A stretch of DNA of 64,000 nucleotides. Source: Bacteroidales bacterium (GTDB lineage: Bacteria > Bacteroidota > Bacteroidia > Bacteroidales > UBA10428). Positions 63 to 13,290 of the stretch are shown piece by piece. The notes beneath the pieces were generated by a model. The model saw only the letters and a list, made by a program, of their open reading frames with translations, was not told where the DNA came from and ran no database searches. Location of the stretch: assembly GCA_016934395.1 (NCBI GenBank), contig JAFGSZ010000002.1:1-64000 (forward strand). The letters run 5' to 3'. The translations under genes were made by a program, and so were the position numbers. The number at the start of each line of letters is the position of its first letter. Position 1 is the stretch's first letter.

Positions 63-3000
63 ATGGGAAGATTTGTTGTTGTTGGCATTTTTATTTTTAA
101 CTCGCTCTTAAATTTCGCTCAAAATAATCCGCTGCAGTTTAGCAGGATTACTACTCAGGAAGGGCTCTCTAATAATTGGGTTAGGGATATTTACCAGGAT
201 CAAAAAGGATTTATGTGGTTTGGTACAAGAGATGGGCTGAATCGCTACGACGGCTATTTTTGTAAGGCATATCGTCCCGAATTTTTCAAAGACAATCCAC
301 TGGGAGATATTGCTGTAAATAGTATTCAGGAAATCGATGGCAAACTTTGGGTTGGCACTGACATTGGCCTTTTTATGTATGATTCCTACCTTGATAAATT
401 AGTTCCTTTAACCACTCCGGAACAGCTTTCTGTAACCTGTATTCTCATGGATAATAATCAACAGGTATGGCTGGGAACCCATACCGGATTATACAGATAT
501 AATAAAAAAGACAGCATATGGACACATTTTGTTAACAACCCTGATAATCCATTATCAATAACCAACAGTTATATAACCAGACTTTTTCTGGATTCGGAAT
601 CAAACATCTGGGTGGGTACACGTAACGGTTTAAACCTCTTTCAGGAAAATTCGAACACCTTTAGTTCCTATTTTATTACCAATGTTTGGGATATTAATTC
701 CGATTACGATGTTATGGCCATTGCGGAAGATAAACTGAAAAGGATATGGATCGGCTCTACGCGTAAAGGTTTATATGTTTTAGATCGTCAGGCACAAAAG
801 GCAAGTAAATTATCCAAGGTTAGGTCTGGTGCCATTCTGGACCTGTTAATTGATTCGTATAATGTTTTGTGGGTAGCCAAGGGAGGAAATCAGGGACTGG
901 AAAGAATACATCTTAATAATTTTTCACTTACAGACAAAACAGAAATCGAACATTATACCCTTAATCGGGCCAACCCTTCAAGCCTTAGTGACAATTCAGT
1001 TTTTTGTTTATATAAGGACCATCTAAATGATATTTGGATTGGGACTTTTGAAGGCGGGGTTAATTATTATAGTCCCAGGGCAAAAAAATTTCAGGTTATT
1101 CAGGAGAGTTTTGATAACAGTGAATCTATAAAGAGTAGTCTTGTAAATTCTTTTTTTGAAGAAAAGGATTATTTATGGATAGGCACTGAAGGGGGATTGG
1201 ATCGATATAATAAAAAAACAGGAAAATACAGCCATTATGAATACGATGTTCAGGATCCCTCCAGCATCGGTGGAAATCCTATCTATGCCATTTATAAAGA
1301 CCATCGGGGTAATCTCTGGATCGGAACATGGGCTGGCGGACTGTATTTATTTGATTATAAAACGGAAACATTTAAAAGGTATTTACCCGGTGACAGACCA
1401 GGTTCATTAAGCAATGCCAGTATTTTTTCAATTGCTGAAGACAGCCGTGGAAATTTATGGATTGGAACCATTGGCGGCGGACTAAATCGTTTTGACTATA
1501 CAAGTGAAACTTTTATTCACTATAAACATGATACTAATAATCCTTCAAGCCTTGATAATGATTATGTACATAATATTTTAGAAACCAGTAAGGGCATATT
1601 ATATATAGCAACAAGTAATTCGTTGGAAGAGTTTAACTATGAAAATAATAATTTTATTCATTACCCTCATTTTGTTCAGGACTCATCAAATCAATTGGGT
1701 GAAATACGATCAATATTCGAAGACAGCAGAAATAATATTTGGATAGCGACAAATAAGGGTCTTGAAATATTTAATGAAGAGCAAAAAGTTTTTGTACCCT
1801 ATAATATAGAAACAGTTATTCGTAATAGTACTATTCAGGGTATACTGGAAGATGATCGGGGCAATCTTTGGATTAGTACTAATAAAGGAATTTCAAAAAT
1901 TGAACTGGGAATTTTTACACCTGAGCCAGCAATCTCTGAAAATTTTACTGTGGAAGACGGAATAGCCGGAAATGAATCGATAAAAAGAGCTGCCTATAAA
2001 AATGATAAGGGCATTATGTTTTTTGGATCTTCATCCGGGTTTACCTATTTCCATCCGGATAGCATTTTTCTTAATCCGGTCATACCTAATGTTGTAATTA
2101 CAGGATTTAATACCTTATTTTCAACACCGGATAAAAATGTAAAATATACTACCATACAGCAAAATATTGAGACACTGGATAAATTAGAGTTATCATATAG
2201 GGATGCAGATTTTATTATTGAATTTGCAGCCCTGAACTATCTAAATTCCATTAAAAATCAATATCGTTACAAGCTCGAAGGATATGATAAAAACTGGATT
2301 GATGCAGGAAATCAGCGGGCAGCAACATATACTAATATAAGTCCCGGTAAATATACTTTTATCGTAATGGGATCAAATAATGACGGGGTATGGAACAGCA
2401 AACCGAAAACCCTGGATATTATAATTTATCCCCCATGGTGGAAAACGTGGGCATTTAGAATATTTATAATTATTCTATTGCTGATTGCGCTTTATTCCAT
2501 CTACCGGATTCGTATTTCTTTGCTTCAAAAGCAGAAGAAAATTTTAGAGAAAAGTGTCAAAGAACGTACTCTTGAACTGTCTGAAATAAATACGCTCCTG
2601 GAAGAACGCACAGAGGAGATTACAATGCAGAATGATGAATTATCGCAACACAGGAACCACCTTGAAGATTTAATTAAAGAACGTACTACGGAGCTTGAAG
2701 CTGCAAAAATTAAAGCTGAAAGATCGGATGCTCTGAAATCAGCATTCCTCGCAAACATGAGTCATGAGATTAGAACCCCCCTGAATGCTATAGTGGGTTT
2801 TTCATCTCTTTTTAGAGATGATGAGTTAACGAATGAAAATAAAAATAAGTATGTAGATATTATTGAAAGTAATAGTGAAGCCCTGTTAGTACTAATCAAC
2901 GATATTCTCGATATTTCACTTATCGAAGCAAACCAGCTTGTACTTTCAAAAGATACTTTTGAAGCTGATAAAATATTAATTGAGCTTGAAAGCTTTTATA

Positions 3001-3839
3001 ATATGAAAAATACTAAGGGAATAACAATAACTTTTGAATCTAAAAATAATAGAAATTTAAAGCTTCATAATGATTCTGTGAGGTTCAGACAAGTATTTAG
3101 CAATTTATTGGGCAATGCCTATAAATATACAGATGAGGGCAGAATACGCTTTGGATATCAGATAGTAGGTAAGGAGGTACGGTTTTATGTTTCCGACTCA
3201 GGTATAGGAATTCCCAAAGCTGAATTTCCACTCATTTTTGAACATTTCTATAAAATTGAAAATACCGAACGTAAACTATATAGAGGAACAGGTATTGGTT
3301 TGTCGATTAGTAAAAAACTGGTGGAACTAATGGGTGGAGAATTATGGCTTGAATCTACTGTAAATAAGGGTACAGTATTTTATTTCACCCTGCCTTTTGA
3401 TCAGCCTGAAGAATTGATTGAGGAACAACAGAAAACAACATCAATTATCGATGCCGATTCTTTTAAGAATATCCAGGTTCTTATTGTTGAAGACGAACCT
3501 GCCAATTATGAACTGGTTCATAATATTTTAAAAAGCCGGGTGGGTAAAATGTTTTGGGCAAAAAATGGTAAGGAAGCAATTGATTTTGTTCAGGAACAAC
3601 CCCAAATAAAAAACCTAATCATTCTTATGGATATAAAAATGCCGATTATCAATGGTTATGATGCCAATAGGGAAATTAGAAAAATTAACAGTAAAATACC
3701 TGTAGTTGCATTAACTGCTTATGCCCAGGCTGCTGACAAGGAAAAAATTAAAAAAGAAAATTTCGATGCCTATATTTCCAAACCTTTTAAACCTGAAACG
3801 CTGATTAGCGTGCTGCAAAAATTAAAGCCAAAACTTTAA
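63..3839 (+). CDS. Hybrid two-component sensor kinase with Reg_prop propeller
   Basis: Periplasmic sensor fused to a cytoplasmic histidine kinase and a receiver. A signal peptide (about residues 1-20) is followed by many Reg_prop propeller repeats (recurring WxGT..GL motifs, about 30-640), a Y_Y_Y domain (about 715-795), one membrane segment (about 799-816) and a coiled coil. Then come HisKA with phospho-acceptor His901 in SHEIRTPLN, a HATPase (NLLGNAYKYT; DSGIGIP; GTGIGLS) and a C-terminal receiver with Asp1190 in LMDIKMP. It resembles the Bacteroidota hybrid (HTCS) regulators that sense glycans, but it stops after the receiver. No AraC-type helix-turn-helix follows, so output must pass to another protein. 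No SusC/D pair is adjacent, so the ligand is unknown. The ATG at 63 gives a sensible signal peptide. Confidence 0.93.
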   Translation: MGRFVVVGIFIFNSLLNFAQNNPLQFSRITTQEGLSNNWVRDIYQDQKGFMWFGTRDGLNRYDGYFCKAYRPEFFKDNPLGDIAVNSIQEIDGKLWVGTDIGLFMYDSYLDKLVPLTTPEQLSVTCILMDNNQQVWLGTHTGLYRYNKKDSIWTHFVNNPDNPLSITNSYITRLFLDSESNIWVGTRNGLNLFQENSNTFSSYFITNVWDINSDYDVMAIAEDKLKRIWIGSTRKGLYVLDRQAQKASKLSKVRSGAILDLLIDSYNVLWVAKGGNQGLERIHLNNFSLTDKTEIEHYTLNRANPSSLSDNSVFCLYKDHLNDIWIGTFEGGVNYYSPRAKKFQVIQESFDNSESIKSSLVNSFFEEKDYLWIGTEGGLDRYNKKTGKYSHYEYDVQDPSSIGGNPIYAIYKDHRGNLWIGTWAGGLYLFDYKTETFKRYLPGDRPGSLSNASIFSIAEDSRGNLWIGTIGGGLNRFDYTSETFIHYKHDTNNPSSLDNDYVHNILETSKGILYIATSNSLEEFNYENNNFIHYPHFVQDSSNQLGEIRSIFEDSRNNIWIATNKGLEIFNEEQKVFVPYNIETVIRNSTIQGILEDDRGNLWISTNKGISKIELGIFTPEPAISENFTVEDGIAGNESIKRAAYKNDKGIMFFGSSSGFTYFHPDSIFLNPVIPNVVITGFNTLFSTPDKNVKYTTIQQNIETLDKLELSYRDADFIIEFAALNYLNSIKNQYRYKLEGYDKNWIDAGNQRAATYTNISPGKYTFIVMGSNNDGVWNSKPKTLDIIIYPPWWKTWAFRIFIIILLLIALYSIYRIRISLLQKQKKILEKSVKERTLELSEINTLLEERTEEITMQNDELSQHRNHLEDLIKERTTELEAAKIKAERSDALKSAFLANMSHEIRTPLNAIVGFSSLFRDDELTNENKNKYVDIIESNSEALLVLINDILDISLIEANQLVLSKDTFEADKILIELESFYNMKNTKGITITFESKNNRNLKLHNDSVRFRQVFSNLLGNAYKYTDEGRIRFGYQIVGKEVRFYVSDSGIGIPKAEFPLIFEHFYKIENTERKLYRGTGIGLSISKKLVELMGGELWLESTVNKGTVFYFTLPFDQPEELIEEQQKTTSIIDADSFKNIQVLIVEDEPANYELVHNILKSRVGKMFWAKNGKEAIDFVQEQPQIKNLIILMDIKMPIINGYDANREIRKINSKIPVVALTAYAQAADKEKIKKENFDAYISKPFKPETLISVLQKLKPKL

Positions 3840-4063: not shown

Positions 4064-5398
4064 ATGCAGACAGGAAGTAAAATGAAGGAATTGATCGATG
4101 AAATTGAACTATTAAGAGCCGAATTAGAAAAAAAAGATAAAATACTTGAGACTCAGAATAATTTCATCCGGATTGAAAAAGAAACGATGGAAAGACAGGA
4201 GAGACTGCTTCATTCATTGGTGGAAGCAGCTGCAGGTAAGATCGGACAAGATTTTTTCGATAATATTGTTACAAAGCTCGCTGAGTGGCTAAATGCTGAT
4301 TGTGTAATAATCGGTCAAAAGACAGAAGATGAAAGAATTAATGCAGTTCCTATGTATTTTGATGGACAAATATCACATGGATTTTCATATGAACTTGAAG
4401 GTTCACCATGCGATGTAACCACAAGAACCGGATATTGTGCGTATTCTGAAAATGTGATAAACCTCTTCCCGAAAGACAAAATTTTAATTGATTTTAACGC
4501 GGAGAGTTATATTGGAACAGCACTGTATAATAAATCCGGAGATTGTAATGGCGTTATTTGTTCAGTTTCCAGGAAAAAATTAACGATTCCTCCAAATGCC
4601 AAAGAAATCCTGAAAATAATCGGTGCCAGAGTTAGTGCCGAAATTGAAAGAAAAAAGATTGAGGAAGCGTTGCTCAAATCAGAATCTGATCTAAGAGTAA
4701 GTAATGCAACAAAAGACAAGTTTTTTTCGATAATTGCCCATGATTTAAAAAATCCAATGAATACAATTATTGGATTTTCTGAATTGCTGGCTGAGGGTCT
4801 GGGTAAAATGAATGATGAACAAATAGAATTTTATGTTGATATAATCGGTCAAAGCTCAAAAAATGCATTTGATCTTCTGGAAAATTTATTGGTGTGGTCA
4901 CTTTCTCAACAGGGATTAATACGGTTTAATCCTAGAAAATTTAATGTAAATTCTGAAATACATAAATCTATTGCCTTAGTGAACAATATGGCAATTAAAA
5001 AATCTATATCCATTCAGGTAAATATCAATAAAATCCTTCAGGTTGTAGCGGACAGAAACTTGTTTGGAACGATAATTAGAAATTTACTATCCAACGCCAT
5101 AAAGTTTACAAATCCCGGGGGGGCTGTAAAAGTGTATACCAATCAATTTTTAAATCCGGCTCAAAACAAAGTGGAAATTATTGTTGAAGATAACGGAGTA
5201 GGTATGAATGCAGATAAACTTAAAACTATTTTTTCTGTTGGTAAAAGTACTCCGGAACAAGGAACGGACTATGAAAAAGGAACGGGTTTGGGATTAATTC
5301 TTTGTAAGGAATTTGCAGAAAAAAATGAGGGATCTATTCATGTTGAGAGCAAGTTAGGTAAAGGGAGTAAATTTATTGTTACACTAAATACCATATAG
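4064..5398 (+). CDS. Soluble sensor histidine kinase with GAF-like domain
   Basis: Cytoplasmic histidine kinase with no membrane segment. A short N-terminal coiled coil (about 1-50) leads to a GAF-like sensor region (about 55-200), then HisKA with His226 in IIAHDLKNPMN, and a HATPase with N box NLLSNAIKFTN, G1 box EDNGVGM and GTGLGL. It lies 224 bp after the hybrid kinase on the same strand. No response regulator is adjacent, so its partner is unknown. The ATG at 4064 is used; an in-frame ATG at 4082 is preceded by aggaag and is an equally good start. The GAF ligand cannot be inferred. Confidence 0.9.
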   Translation: MQTGSKMKELIDEIELLRAELEKKDKILETQNNFIRIEKETMERQERLLHSLVEAAAGKIGQDFFDNIVTKLAEWLNADCVIIGQKTEDERINAVPMYFDGQISHGFSYELEGSPCDVTTRTGYCAYSENVINLFPKDKILIDFNAESYIGTALYNKSGDCNGVICSVSRKKLTIPPNAKEILKIIGARVSAEIERKKIEEALLKSESDLRVSNATKDKFFSIIAHDLKNPMNTIIGFSELLAEGLGKMNDEQIEFYVDIIGQSSKNAFDLLENLLVWSLSQQGLIRFNPRKFNVNSEIHKSIALVNNMAIKKSISIQVNINKILQVVADRNLFGTIIRNLLSNAIKFTNPGGAVKVYTNQFLNPAQNKVEIIVEDNGVGMNADKLKTIFSVGKSTPEQGTDYEKGTGLGLILCKEFAEKNEGSIHVESKLGKGSKFIVTLNTI

Positions 5399-5552: not shown

Positions 5553-7472
5553 ATGAAGAGTTTATTTAAAATCCTGGAAGAAAAAAAGATTCAACTGCCT
5601 GATAATGTAAAAACACTTTTATGGGAATGTAAGAGTTTATCAGTTTTTAATACCACAGAAGAACTAGCAAAAGCTGCAACAGGAAATGAGAATACCACTT
5701 CATTTGAGGTCAAATATAATATTCCGGGAAAAGGGCTTTATACCGAAGCTGTAATTCACAGAGTTAAGAATGGAATTTCTGCAAATTACACCGAATCGTA
5801 TATGCGTCGTCGCGATCCGGATACAATGGCCATTGCCGATGATAAACCCACTGATAAAATGCGGTTTTCAGATAAATACGGATATGATTTTTCAGTTTTA
5901 AAAGACGAAACATTTACATGGTTAAAAGAACAGGATATTTCACTTTTCTTCTATTTTGCCGGCAGAAATAACATTGGTTCCGGTGGAATAGCAATTGTTC
6001 CTTCAAATGCGGCATTTTTTGCGATGGGGCTTTCGATGCTTCAATCCATAATTAGTAGTGATGAATTACCTGAAAATTTCACCGTCGAATCCACTGTTTT
6101 GGTTGCCCCGCCTTTCAGACATACTCATTTTAAAGGCAAACAGGTTGTTATACACAACAGAACCGAAAAGGTGCACGAAGTATATTCATATAACTTATAT
6201 CCCGGTCCCAGTGCAAAAAAAGGATTATATGGAGTGTTGCTGGATAAAGGTGAAAAAGAAAACTGGATAACCACCCATTGTTCTACAGTACAGGTTTCCA
6301 GTCCATATGATAATATTACTACATTTATGCACGAAGGTGCCAGTGGAGGCGGAAAAAGTGAAATGTTGCAGCATATTGTAAGAGAACCACAGGGACAGGT
6401 ATTAATTGGTGAAAATACGGTAACCAGTGAAAGAAGGTTAATTTCTCTTCCTTTGTTTTGTACTTTTAATCCGGTTACCGATGATATGGCCATATGCCAT
6501 CCCTCTATTCAAAAGAATAATGGAAAATTATCTATTATTGATGCAGAAAATGCATGGTTTATACGCGTAGATAGTATCAACGATTATGGAGATGATCCCT
6601 TTCTTGAAAAATTGACCATTAAGGCAAAAAAGCCGCTGTTATTTTTAAATATCGAAACCAAACCTGAATGCACTGCACTAATCTGGGACCATATTGAAGA
6701 TGAACCCGGAAAAAAATGCCCAAATCCCAGGGTAATTGTGCCCAGAGATATTGTACCCGGTATTGTGGATACTCCTGTTACTATTGACGTTCGTAGTTTC
6801 GGAGTCCGAACTCCCCCATGTTCATTAGAAAATCCCTCTTATGGTATTGTTGGATTGTTTCATATATTGCCCCCGGCACTGGCATGGTTGTGGAGACTTG
6901 TAGCCCCCAGGGGGTATGCCAATCCAAGTGTTGTTGGCACCGGAAATATGGAAAGTGAAGGAGTTGGTTCATTCTGGCCTTTTGCCACCGGGGAAATGAT
7001 AAATCATGCCAACCTGTTGTTAGATCAGGTTATTCAGAATCCAAGAACAAGATATACCCTCACGCCCAATCAGCATATCGGAGTATGGAAAGTTGGTTTC
7101 AAACCTCAGCTTTTAATGCGTGAATACCTTACAAGAAGGGGAAATGCTAAATTAAGAAGCGATCAGTATCAAGGTGCCCGAACACCCTTGCTGGGATATG
7201 AATTAAATTATCTAACCATTGAAGGCGCAAAAATTCCGTCAAGGTTCTTAAAAGTTTATAAACAACAGGAAGTTGGCGAAGAAGGATATGATAAAGGAGC
7301 GTCTATTCTCTATGATTTTTTCAGAAGTGAACTACAAAAATATTTGAAGCCTTCTTTATCAAATGTTGGTAAAAAAATTATTGAGACTTGTTTATCAGGA
7401 GCTACTGTTGAAGATTATGTAAAAATTATCCCTATGGATTATCAATATTCATTTACACATATTGAGGAATAG
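5553..7472 (+). CDS. DUF4914 family protein with HprK/PEPCK-like P-loop
   Basis: 639-residue cytoplasmic protein that I recognise as the DUF4914 family, which has no established function. It contains an unmistakable Walker A, GASGGGKSE (about residues 262-270). The G-x-S-G-x-G-K-S-E pattern is that of HPr kinase and is close to the PEP carboxykinase P-loop. Further conserved-looking blocks are PPFRHTHFKGKQ, YPGPSAKKGLYG and CPNPRVIVPR. The last lies where ATP-dependent PEPCKs carry their adenine/ribose-binding segment. I infer a nucleotide-binding enzyme of that fold, possibly a kinase; substrate unknown. It stands alone, 154 bp after the second kinase gene, and ends at a strong terminator. 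Confidence 0.87.
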   Translation: MKSLFKILEEKKIQLPDNVKTLLWECKSLSVFNTTEELAKAATGNENTTSFEVKYNIPGKGLYTEAVIHRVKNGISANYTESYMRRRDPDTMAIADDKPTDKMRFSDKYGYDFSVLKDETFTWLKEQDISLFFYFAGRNNIGSGGIAIVPSNAAFFAMGLSMLQSIISSDELPENFTVESTVLVAPPFRHTHFKGKQVVIHNRTEKVHEVYSYNLYPGPSAKKGLYGVLLDKGEKENWITTHCSTVQVSSPYDNITTFMHEGASGGGKSEMLQHIVREPQGQVLIGENTVTSERRLISLPLFCTFNPVTDDMAICHPSIQKNNGKLSIIDAENAWFIRVDSINDYGDDPFLEKLTIKAKKPLLFLNIETKPECTALIWDHIEDEPGKKCPNPRVIVPRDIVPGIVDTPVTIDVRSFGVRTPPCSLENPSYGIVGLFHILPPALAWLWRLVAPRGYANPSVVGTGNMESEGVGSFWPFATGEMINHANLLLDQVIQNPRTRYTLTPNQHIGVWKVGFKPQLLMREYLTRRGNAKLRSDQYQGARTPLLGYELNYLTIEGAKIPSRFLKVYKQQEVGEEGYDKGASILYDFFRSELQKYLKPSLSNVGKKIIETCLSGATVEDYVKIIPMDYQYSFTHIEE

Positions 7473-12324: not shown

Positions 12325-13290
12325 TTAATTATAAAAAGAATCAGGATCATCATCATCAGTGAAGATCGTTTTGAGAATTATGGGTATGTCTATGGGTTCA
12401 CCTTCCATACCTATTGGTTTTCTTTCAGAAACTGTATCCCACAATACAATATCCGGATAGCGGGTTGCCAGCAACATAGAAATAAGGCCAAAAGGTTTTG
12501 GCCCATGGGGAAGGATCACCACCTTTGAATGAATACGAAGATCAAGACATAATGAAGTGAGGATGGAATTTATTTCTTCGGGATTATCAGGAGAGTATGA
12601 TAATATATTTTTATGGTTTAGTTGTTTTAAAAATCCCTGATTTACTTCAGTTACCGATGCAGTATAATCCTGAATTGCAGGTGTCTCAGGAATAAATGCG
12701 TAAATATTTTCGGGCTTAAGCTTTGAGATCAGTTTAGAACTTAATTTCGGACAATTCTCCATACCGGCAATAACGGATACCGATTTTTTATCTTTAATAA
12801 TATCCTCGGATCCAAGGATCGGACCCAGATAATGCACATCTACTTTAGTTTCGGCAGGGTAATAATTTGCCGGAGTATATGAAAAAAAGACATTTGCCTT
12901 TTGAAAAGAAAAATCATTACTGTTGAAGTAATCGATAAGCGCAGCAATCCATTTTTTGGGCATACACGAGTAATCCACAAGAATATTGAAATTTTCTCTT
13001 GCATGGCGTGCTGTTTTACTTTTTAGAATATCGGCTATTGTATCTATGTTATTTTTGAGGCATTCTATTTTCTTAAATCCTAATTTGCTGAAAATGTTTT
13101 CATTTTTTTCAAGATCTTCAATAAAATCAGGGCAATCTAAATCAAATAGTATCTTTTCAGCATTAGTATCTTCAAAATGACGGGCCAGATATGTACACCT
13201 TGGCTGGTAGCCAAGAACTGCAAAAATCAGGTCGTATTGTTCAAGTTGAAGTTCTTCAAACTTTATTTGACAGGTGTGTATCAGTTCCAT
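12325..13290 (-). CDS. Uncharacterised 321-residue protein
   Basis: I do not recognise this protein. It is soluble, with no signal peptide or membrane segment. The N-terminus has a compact block, DLIFAVLGYQPRCTYLARHF (about 21-40), then acidic helical sequence, then a segment with VDYSCMPKKW (about 107-116). The second half has a Rossmann-like run (SVIAGMENCPKL; VVILPHGPKPFGLISMLLA, about 258-276). The C-terminus is acidic (DDDDPDSF). It is monocistronic, flanked by spacers of about 270-320 bp. Codon use looks like that of its neighbours. No function is proposed. Confidence 0.8.
   Translation of the reverse strand: MELIHTCQIKFEELQLEQYDLIFAVLGYQPRCTYLARHFEDTNAEKILFDLDCPDFIEDLEKNENIFSKLGFKKIECLKNNIDTIADILKSKTARHARENFNILVDYSCMPKKWIAALIDYFNSNDFSFQKANVFFSYTPANYYPAETKVDVHYLGPILGSEDIIKDKKSVSVIAGMENCPKLSSKLISKLKPENIYAFIPETPAIQDYTASVTEVNQGFLKQLNHKNILSYSPDNPEEINSILTSLCLDLRIHSKVVILPHGPKPFGLISMLLATRYPDIVLWDTVSERKPIGMEGEPIDIPIILKTIFTDDDDPDSFYN

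Follow-up and report, generated by a model that had tools for sequence, protein, structure and literature searches.

PEP carboxykinase (PEPCK) is a meeting point of gluconeogenesis, anaplerosis, and CO2 fixation, and connects the synthesis of sugars with the citric acid cycle. Its described classes depend on ATP, GTP, or PPi. In the E. coli enzyme (PckA), we take R65 to be the substrate/CO2 arginine and R333 to be a substrate/phosphoryl contact, while D268 and D269 of PEPCK are presumably the Mg and Mn ligands. Metabolic models call PEPCK on the basis of families like PF01293 or PF00821, and the family DUF4914 (Pfam PF16260) is without an assigned function: a literature search on DUF4914, PF16260, and IPR032583 gave no match (COG1866 alone gave matches), and in the literature on PEPCK and Thermotoga no paper assigning this family was found.

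The window (the whole stretch of DNA analyzed, 64,000 nucleotides) encodes a member of this family in an intact open reading frame with an ATG start, which spans exactly 5553-7472 on the forward strand. PF16260 covers the protein over its full length (profile positions 1-612 of 612, E 2.5e-288) and is its sole Pfam match at E up to 10, with PF01293 and PF00821 both absent; no NCBIfam model scored above its cut-off. We propose, with a probability of about 60%, that DUF4914 is a working PEPCK and a fourth deep lineage alongside the three classes that depend on ATP, GTP, and PPi. The features on which this proposal draws are as follows, with residue counts taken over distinct family members:

5553..7472, forward strand: DUF4914 gene, 639 aa, PEPCK-fold protein (Pfam PF16260, AF2 model, VIA-align)
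5811..5813, forward strand: R87, aligned with E. coli PckA R65 and with the R of the GTP-PEPCK "ARVE" (joint alignment; 116/116)
6198..6221, forward strand: Y216 ... K222 K223, corresponding to the PEPCK Y207 / K212-K213 motif, K223 being a proposed Mn ligand (alignments; 116/116)
6276..6278, forward strand: H242, aligned with PEPCK H232, a proposed Mn ligand (alignments; 116/116)
6336..6362, forward strand: P-loop GASGGGKSE (kinase-1), residues 262-270 (G[AS]SGxGKSE in 116/116 distinct relatives)
6480..6485, forward strand: D310-D311, aligned with PEPCK D268-D269 (kinase-2) (alignments; 116/116)
6717..6746, forward strand: CPNPRVIVPR, residues 389-398, with N391-P-R393 aligned with PEPCK N-T-R333 / N-A-R (N391, P392, and R393 116/116)

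The AlphaFold2 model of the window protein, built from the family's own alignment, has a mean pLDDT of 91.3 and a pTM of 0.90, and the two-domain PEPCK fold spans almost all of it. The 50 Foldseek matches listed are all PEPCKs (best E 1.9e-24), as are the 50 listed by VIA-align, among them the Thermus ATP-PEPCK 2pc9 (Z 30.0, 488 residues, 2.9 A), the PPi-PEPCK 6k31, which we take to be that of Actinomyces israelii (Z 29.4, 572 residues, 3.1 A), the P. freudenreichii PPi-PEPCK 8e1u (Z 29.0, 570 residues), and the rat GTP-PEPCK (Z 26.4, 529 residues). As a control, a model of the host's own canonical PckA (pLDDT 89.4) scored Z ∼50-55 against ATP-PEPCKs and 29.6 against GTP-PEPCK; the Z scores for PPi-PEPCK have no counterpart in this control, since none was among its 50 listed matches. 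Because the control value of 29.6 is close to the 30.0 of DUF4914, DUF4914 and GTP-PEPCK lie at about the same distance from ATP-PEPCK, and the family is therefore better regarded as a further class than as a diverged PckA. One review holds PPi-PEPCK to be unrelated to other PEPCKs (PMC8100219), a view that stands against the match of both kinds to the DUF4914 model. A sequence-only reading of this locus had named comparison with ATP-PEPCK in advance as a check, and the predicted fold is that of PEPCK, not an unrelated one.

The same reading had singled out GASGGGKSE for its G-x-S-G-x-G-K-S-E pattern and had set conservation of the P-loop lysine beforehand as a test. The motif does lie at residues 262-270. 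Among 116 distinct DUF4914 members, collected as open reading frames of at least 450 aa without filtering by motif, every one (116/116) keeps G[AS]SGxGKSE and K268 is invariant, so the P-loop is conserved in the family. The pattern G.SG.GKSE occurs once in the 248 six-frame ORF segments of at least 60 aa in the window, and is expected ∼5e-6 times by chance in a protein with the same composition. Across the whole chain, 115 distinct aligned relatives share at least 48.6% identity with the window protein, and 107 positions are near-invariant across phyla.

Kinship to PEPCK is detectable by profile-profile and structure comparison, which are needed here, and not by plain sequence search. A single-sequence search of PDB chains with the window protein returned no match at E up to 10, and the family profile matched the ATP-PEPCK 1j3b at E 0.9, ranked under a thymidylate synthase at 0.45. 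When this profile was run on 296 genomes of the window's phylum, 8 matches passed the family cut-off and 7 fell short of it, and six of these seven are canonical ATP-PEPCKs of ∼540-560 aa from 6 genomes (E 7e-5 to 5e-4). Profile-profile alignment by hhalign gave E 5e-9 for 40 DUF4914 sequences against 6 ATP-PEPCKs, 4.8e-8 against 18 ATP-PEPCKs, and 2.3e-4 against 10 GTP-PEPCKs. Mean identities are 18.5% (DUF-ATP), 15.0% (DUF-GTP), and 15.9% (GTP-ATP). A joint alignment of 10 DUF4914, 6 GTP-type, and 8 ATP-type sequences has 16 invariant columns, including Y216, K222, H242, S264, G267, K268, D310, D311, N391, and R393, and the R87 column is at least 90% conserved; MAFFT shifts the Lys pair by one column in some GTP-type rows, although both types clearly have the pair.

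The computed register places the family's invariant residues on the catalytic residues of PEPCK. With E. coli numbering transferred via the host ATP-PEPCK (70% identical to E. coli PckA), the Mn-site residues K213, H232, and D269 are matched by K223, H242, and D311, and the substrate residues R65, Y207, and R333 by R87, Y216, and R393; these, together with D310, are invariant in 116/116 members of a set pre-filtered by the P-loop pattern. Further pairs are K212-K222, S250-S264, K254-K268, and T255-S269, whose DUF4914 members are likewise 116/116 in that set, and titles of PDB entries among the PEPCK structure matches name variants of R65, Y207, K212, K213, S250, K254, and D269. The sequence-only reading had placed CPNPRVIVPR at a nucleotide-binding segment of PEPCK, an assignment that we revise, as N391-P-R393 aligns instead with the "N-x-R" arginine and not with the base-binding segment. 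On computed evidence, DUF4914 belongs firmly to the PEPCK fold family, and its catalytic set is intact.

From these correspondences we infer a reaction in which oxaloacetate and a phosphoryl donor would be interconverted with PEP and CO2, its direction and donor being part of the proposal. Mn2+ would be held by K223, H242, and D311, oxaloacetate or PEP by R87, Y216, and R393, and Mg2+ and the phosphates of the donor by the P-loop (K268, S269) and D310. Oxaloacetate would be decarboxylated to the enolate, which would then take the phosphoryl group. Our guess is that the donor is probably a nucleotide, with PPi as the main alternative.

The distribution of DUF4914 is scattered. Counting matches over the Pfam cut-off, carriers make up 8 of 296 genomes in the sample of the window's phylum, 13 of 40 near relatives, 26 of 71 genomes in the family of a Labilibacter sediminis genome, 31 of 299 in a Clostridia-type phylum sample (the phylum of a Gallispira MAG), and 28 of 198 in a Spirochaetota-type sample (the phylum of a Spirochaetales MAG); where a sample carries no name of its own, its phylum label is taken from the title of the record at its center and not from taxonomic classification. 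Named carrier records also include Planctomycetota and Kiritimatiellota, and T. maritima is a carrier among 14 control genomes; by profile search it has PF16260 and lacks both PF01293 and PF00821. The window's own genome holds a canonical ATP-PEPCK (PF01293, L087), as do most carriers near it. Among 40 carriers checked for PF01293 and PF00821, 8 had neither; these are the named isolates L014, L016, L017, L024, and L025, all with draft genomes, the MAGs L028 and L047, and a sixth named isolate (L022) in which the sole match is a sub-threshold protein of 300 aa. In the 71-genome family, 21 genomes lack both canonical families, and DUF4914 is present in 13 of these 21 versus 13 of the 50 PEPCK holders (Fisher p 0.007), while in the Clostridia-type sample canonical PEPCK is missing from 20 of 31 carriers and from 126 of 268 non-carriers (p 0.087, not significant); both tests ignore phylogeny and MAG gaps. 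Because 8 of the 71 genomes hold none of the three families, PEPCK is not obligatory in that family, and the replacement of canonical PEPCK by DUF4914 is suggestive only. Two Clostridia-type genomes have DUF4914 copies interrupted by several stop codons (G475:C1:1076688-1078554 and G666:C14:19334-19952); the gene seems to be in the course of loss there, and is thus dispensable in places.

In the window, the DUF4914 gene stands alone, preceded by two histidine kinase genes. The first encodes a hybrid two-component sensor (Reg_prop/Y_Y_Y/HisKA/HATPase_c/receiver; 63-3839, forward strand); it is followed, directly upstream of DUF4914, by a second histidine kinase (4064-5398, forward strand) that ends 154 bp before it. 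Downstream, on the other strand, are thioredoxin-like, flavodoxin, and 2-oxoacid dehydrogenase E1/E2 genes. A promoter and terminator scan around the gene gave nothing above chance. Further along the window, a 321-aa open reading frame (12325-13290, reverse strand) has no Pfam match at E up to 1e-5.

Gene neighborhoods were compared across 113 DUF4914 loci (73 + 40), for which raw counts are given, with some contigs entering twice and many flanks short. No operon common to all 113 loci was found. PurE lies directly 3' of DUF4914 in 10 Bacteroidota-type loci, two genes 3' (behind PurK) in four Clostridia-type loci, and three genes away on the opposite strand in two loci of one genome. In a Spirochaetota-set genome (L199) it precedes DUF4914 by 8 bp, and a beta-carbonic anhydrase follows 25 bp downstream; a Bacteroidales record (L005, on the contig that also appears as L068) likewise has a beta-carbonic anhydrase 16 bp downstream. 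Pyruvate:ferredoxin oxidoreductase adjoins the gene divergently in three loci (L172-L174), and in L175 a single strand carries, in this order, 2-oxoacid dehydrogenase E2, Lpd, Gp_dh_C, PGK, the lactate racemase LarA, malic enzyme, and DUF4914. CO2 or bicarbonate takes part in the reactions of PurE/PurK, carbonic anhydrase, and malic enzyme as well as in that of PEPCK, and this computed association with genes of the PEP-pyruvate-oxaloacetate/CO2 area fits a carboxykinase role for DUF4914.

Two other associations recur among these loci. A regulator with HTH_3 and Cupin_2 domains adjoins DUF4914 or lies two genes off in 20 loci (one contig twice), 17 of them on the same strand, and in Marinilabiliaceae-like genomes (loci such as L015, L025, L071, and L116) this XRE-HTH plus cupin protein is kept beside the gene as a candidate dedicated regulator. 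MpsC (PF10057, "Na+-translocating membrane potential-generating system") is upstream of DUF4914 in seven loci from several groups (L065, L170, L176-L178, L194, and L197).

The main rival to a working PEPCK, which we regard as possible but doubtful, is a PEPCK-like kinase with a changed substrate, in which the fold and the Mn/Mg machinery would be kept and another small 2-oxo or enolisable acid phosphorylated, perhaps with decarboxylation. It has to be considered because the host also holds a normal PckA, as do many carriers, and because the replacement statistics are modest; 107 positions are near-invariant across phyla, and there is no genome-wide, one-for-one replacement of PEPCK. The varied neighbors, which include OFA-type MFS and Na_sulph_symp/CitMHS transporters, are also consistent with a different acid. 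Against this, R87, Y216, N391, and R393, which align with the contacts to PEP/oxaloacetate and CO2, are all invariant, and the neighbors fit the PEP-pyruvate-CO2 area.

A second alternative, which overlaps with the working-PEPCK reading and which we consider unlikely, concerns the donor: DUF4914 may be a PPi-type carboxytransphosphorylase, catalyzing the same reaction with pyrophosphate and phosphate replacing the nucleotide, and thus a compact relative of the ∼1100-aa PPi-PEPCKs. Among the 50 structure matches listed, 6k31 and 8e1u have the most aligned residues (rmsd 3.1-3.2; 16-17% identity), and the base-binding region of DUF4914 is without sequence register to the nucleotide PEPCKs, its C-terminal third (430-630, the would-be base site) giving no significant alignment to the ATP or the GTP class (E 0.002 and 0.068 by hhalign). 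However, the PPi-PEPCK chains are nearly twice as long (1109 and 1115 aa versus 639), and none was among the matches listed in the DUF4914 and PEPCK profile searches (60 of 118 in one listing). F516 is invariant and residue 512 is always W, Y, or F in the 116 members; although the register of this region to PEPCK is not significant, the two aromatic residues may equally stack a base.

The sequence-only reading had left open whether a protein with this P-loop phosphorylates a protein or uses a PEPCK-like reaction; the PEPCK half is borne out by the fold, the profile-profile E of 4.8e-8, and the active-site residues, while for the protein-kinase half nothing speaks beyond the common GKSE motif. 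HPr kinase/phosphorylase (PF07475) presumably has, as DUF4914 does, a P-loop with GKSE followed by DD, and the G-x-S-G-x-G-K-S-E pattern with Glu after Ser recalls it, but we assume that it lacks the PEPCK substrate arginines, whose equivalents to R65 and R333 (and to Y207) are present here. Even with E values up to 10 allowed, the window protein did not match Pfam Hpr_kinase, and its PEPCK-sized, two-domain model matches PEPCK end to end; on this null result and this match, an HprK-type protein kinase or phosphorylase was rejected as the main reading and is very improbable. A catalytically dead, regulatory homolog is likewise very improbable, as the degraded copies in the two Clostridia-type genomes would allow it but all active-site positions are invariant in 116/116 intact members.

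Should DUF4914 prove to be a PEPCK, it would supply many PEP-oxaloacetate links now counted as "missing", and models of organisms that also have PckA would need a second isozyme under separate regulation, given the cupin-type regulator that often adjoins the gene. A more far-reaching version, which we offer as speculative, is that of a fourth PEPCK class with its own donor, possibly PPi, forming a compact link between the nucleotide PEPCKs and the giant PPi-PEPCKs, and serving as the only PEPCK in T. maritima and in various other bacteria, Marinilabiliaceae-like and Clostridia-type ones among them, that are currently regarded as PEPCK-free.

Other PEPCK-like proteins were encountered in these genomes. 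A Candidatus Anammoxibacter MAG (G353) encodes a divergent one (L099:1369-3090) with the P-loop GLSATGKTT, which matches PF01293 at only E 9e-56 and has ∼23% identity to ordinary ATP-PEPCKs; divergent PEPCK-like proteins of ∼515-620 aa also occur in G618, G534, G612, G659, and G661. Proteins of this kind are possibly another under-described PEPCK branch. Two proteins of ∼300 aa (L102:1201-2100 and L103:1192-2094) have GxSGxGKS P-loops and sub-threshold PEPCK_ATP matches, the latter being also sub-threshold for Hpr_kinase_C, and appear to be small HprK/PEPCK-like proteins of no clear family.

Among the known systems compared with DUF4914, HPr kinase/phosphorylase is a much smaller protein with no profile match to it. 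The PPi-PEPCKs (6k31 and 8e1u) are alike in fold, at ∼1110 aa versus 639. GTP-PEPCK (PF00821) is also alike in fold and has ∼15% identity; its N-x-R aligns with that of DUF4914, as does the stretch after the DD pair (DDMAI...GKLSIIDAENAWF in DUF4914 versus DDIAW...GKLYAINPEAGFF in GTP-PEPCK), while its PSACGKT P-loop was not found in DUF4914 members. With ATP-PEPCK (PF01293; E. coli PckA, T. thermophilus 1j3b/2pc9) the family differs in being 100 residues longer, in its ∼18.5% identity and the lack of a match to the PF01293 model, in an extra hairpin between the P-loop and DD, in a P-loop that reads GASGGGKSE instead of GLSGTGKTT, and in adenine-contact equivalents that are not recognizable by sequence; the whole fold is nevertheless common to both, and the sites of R65, Y207, K212/K213, H232, K254, D268/D269, and R333 hold the same residue types.
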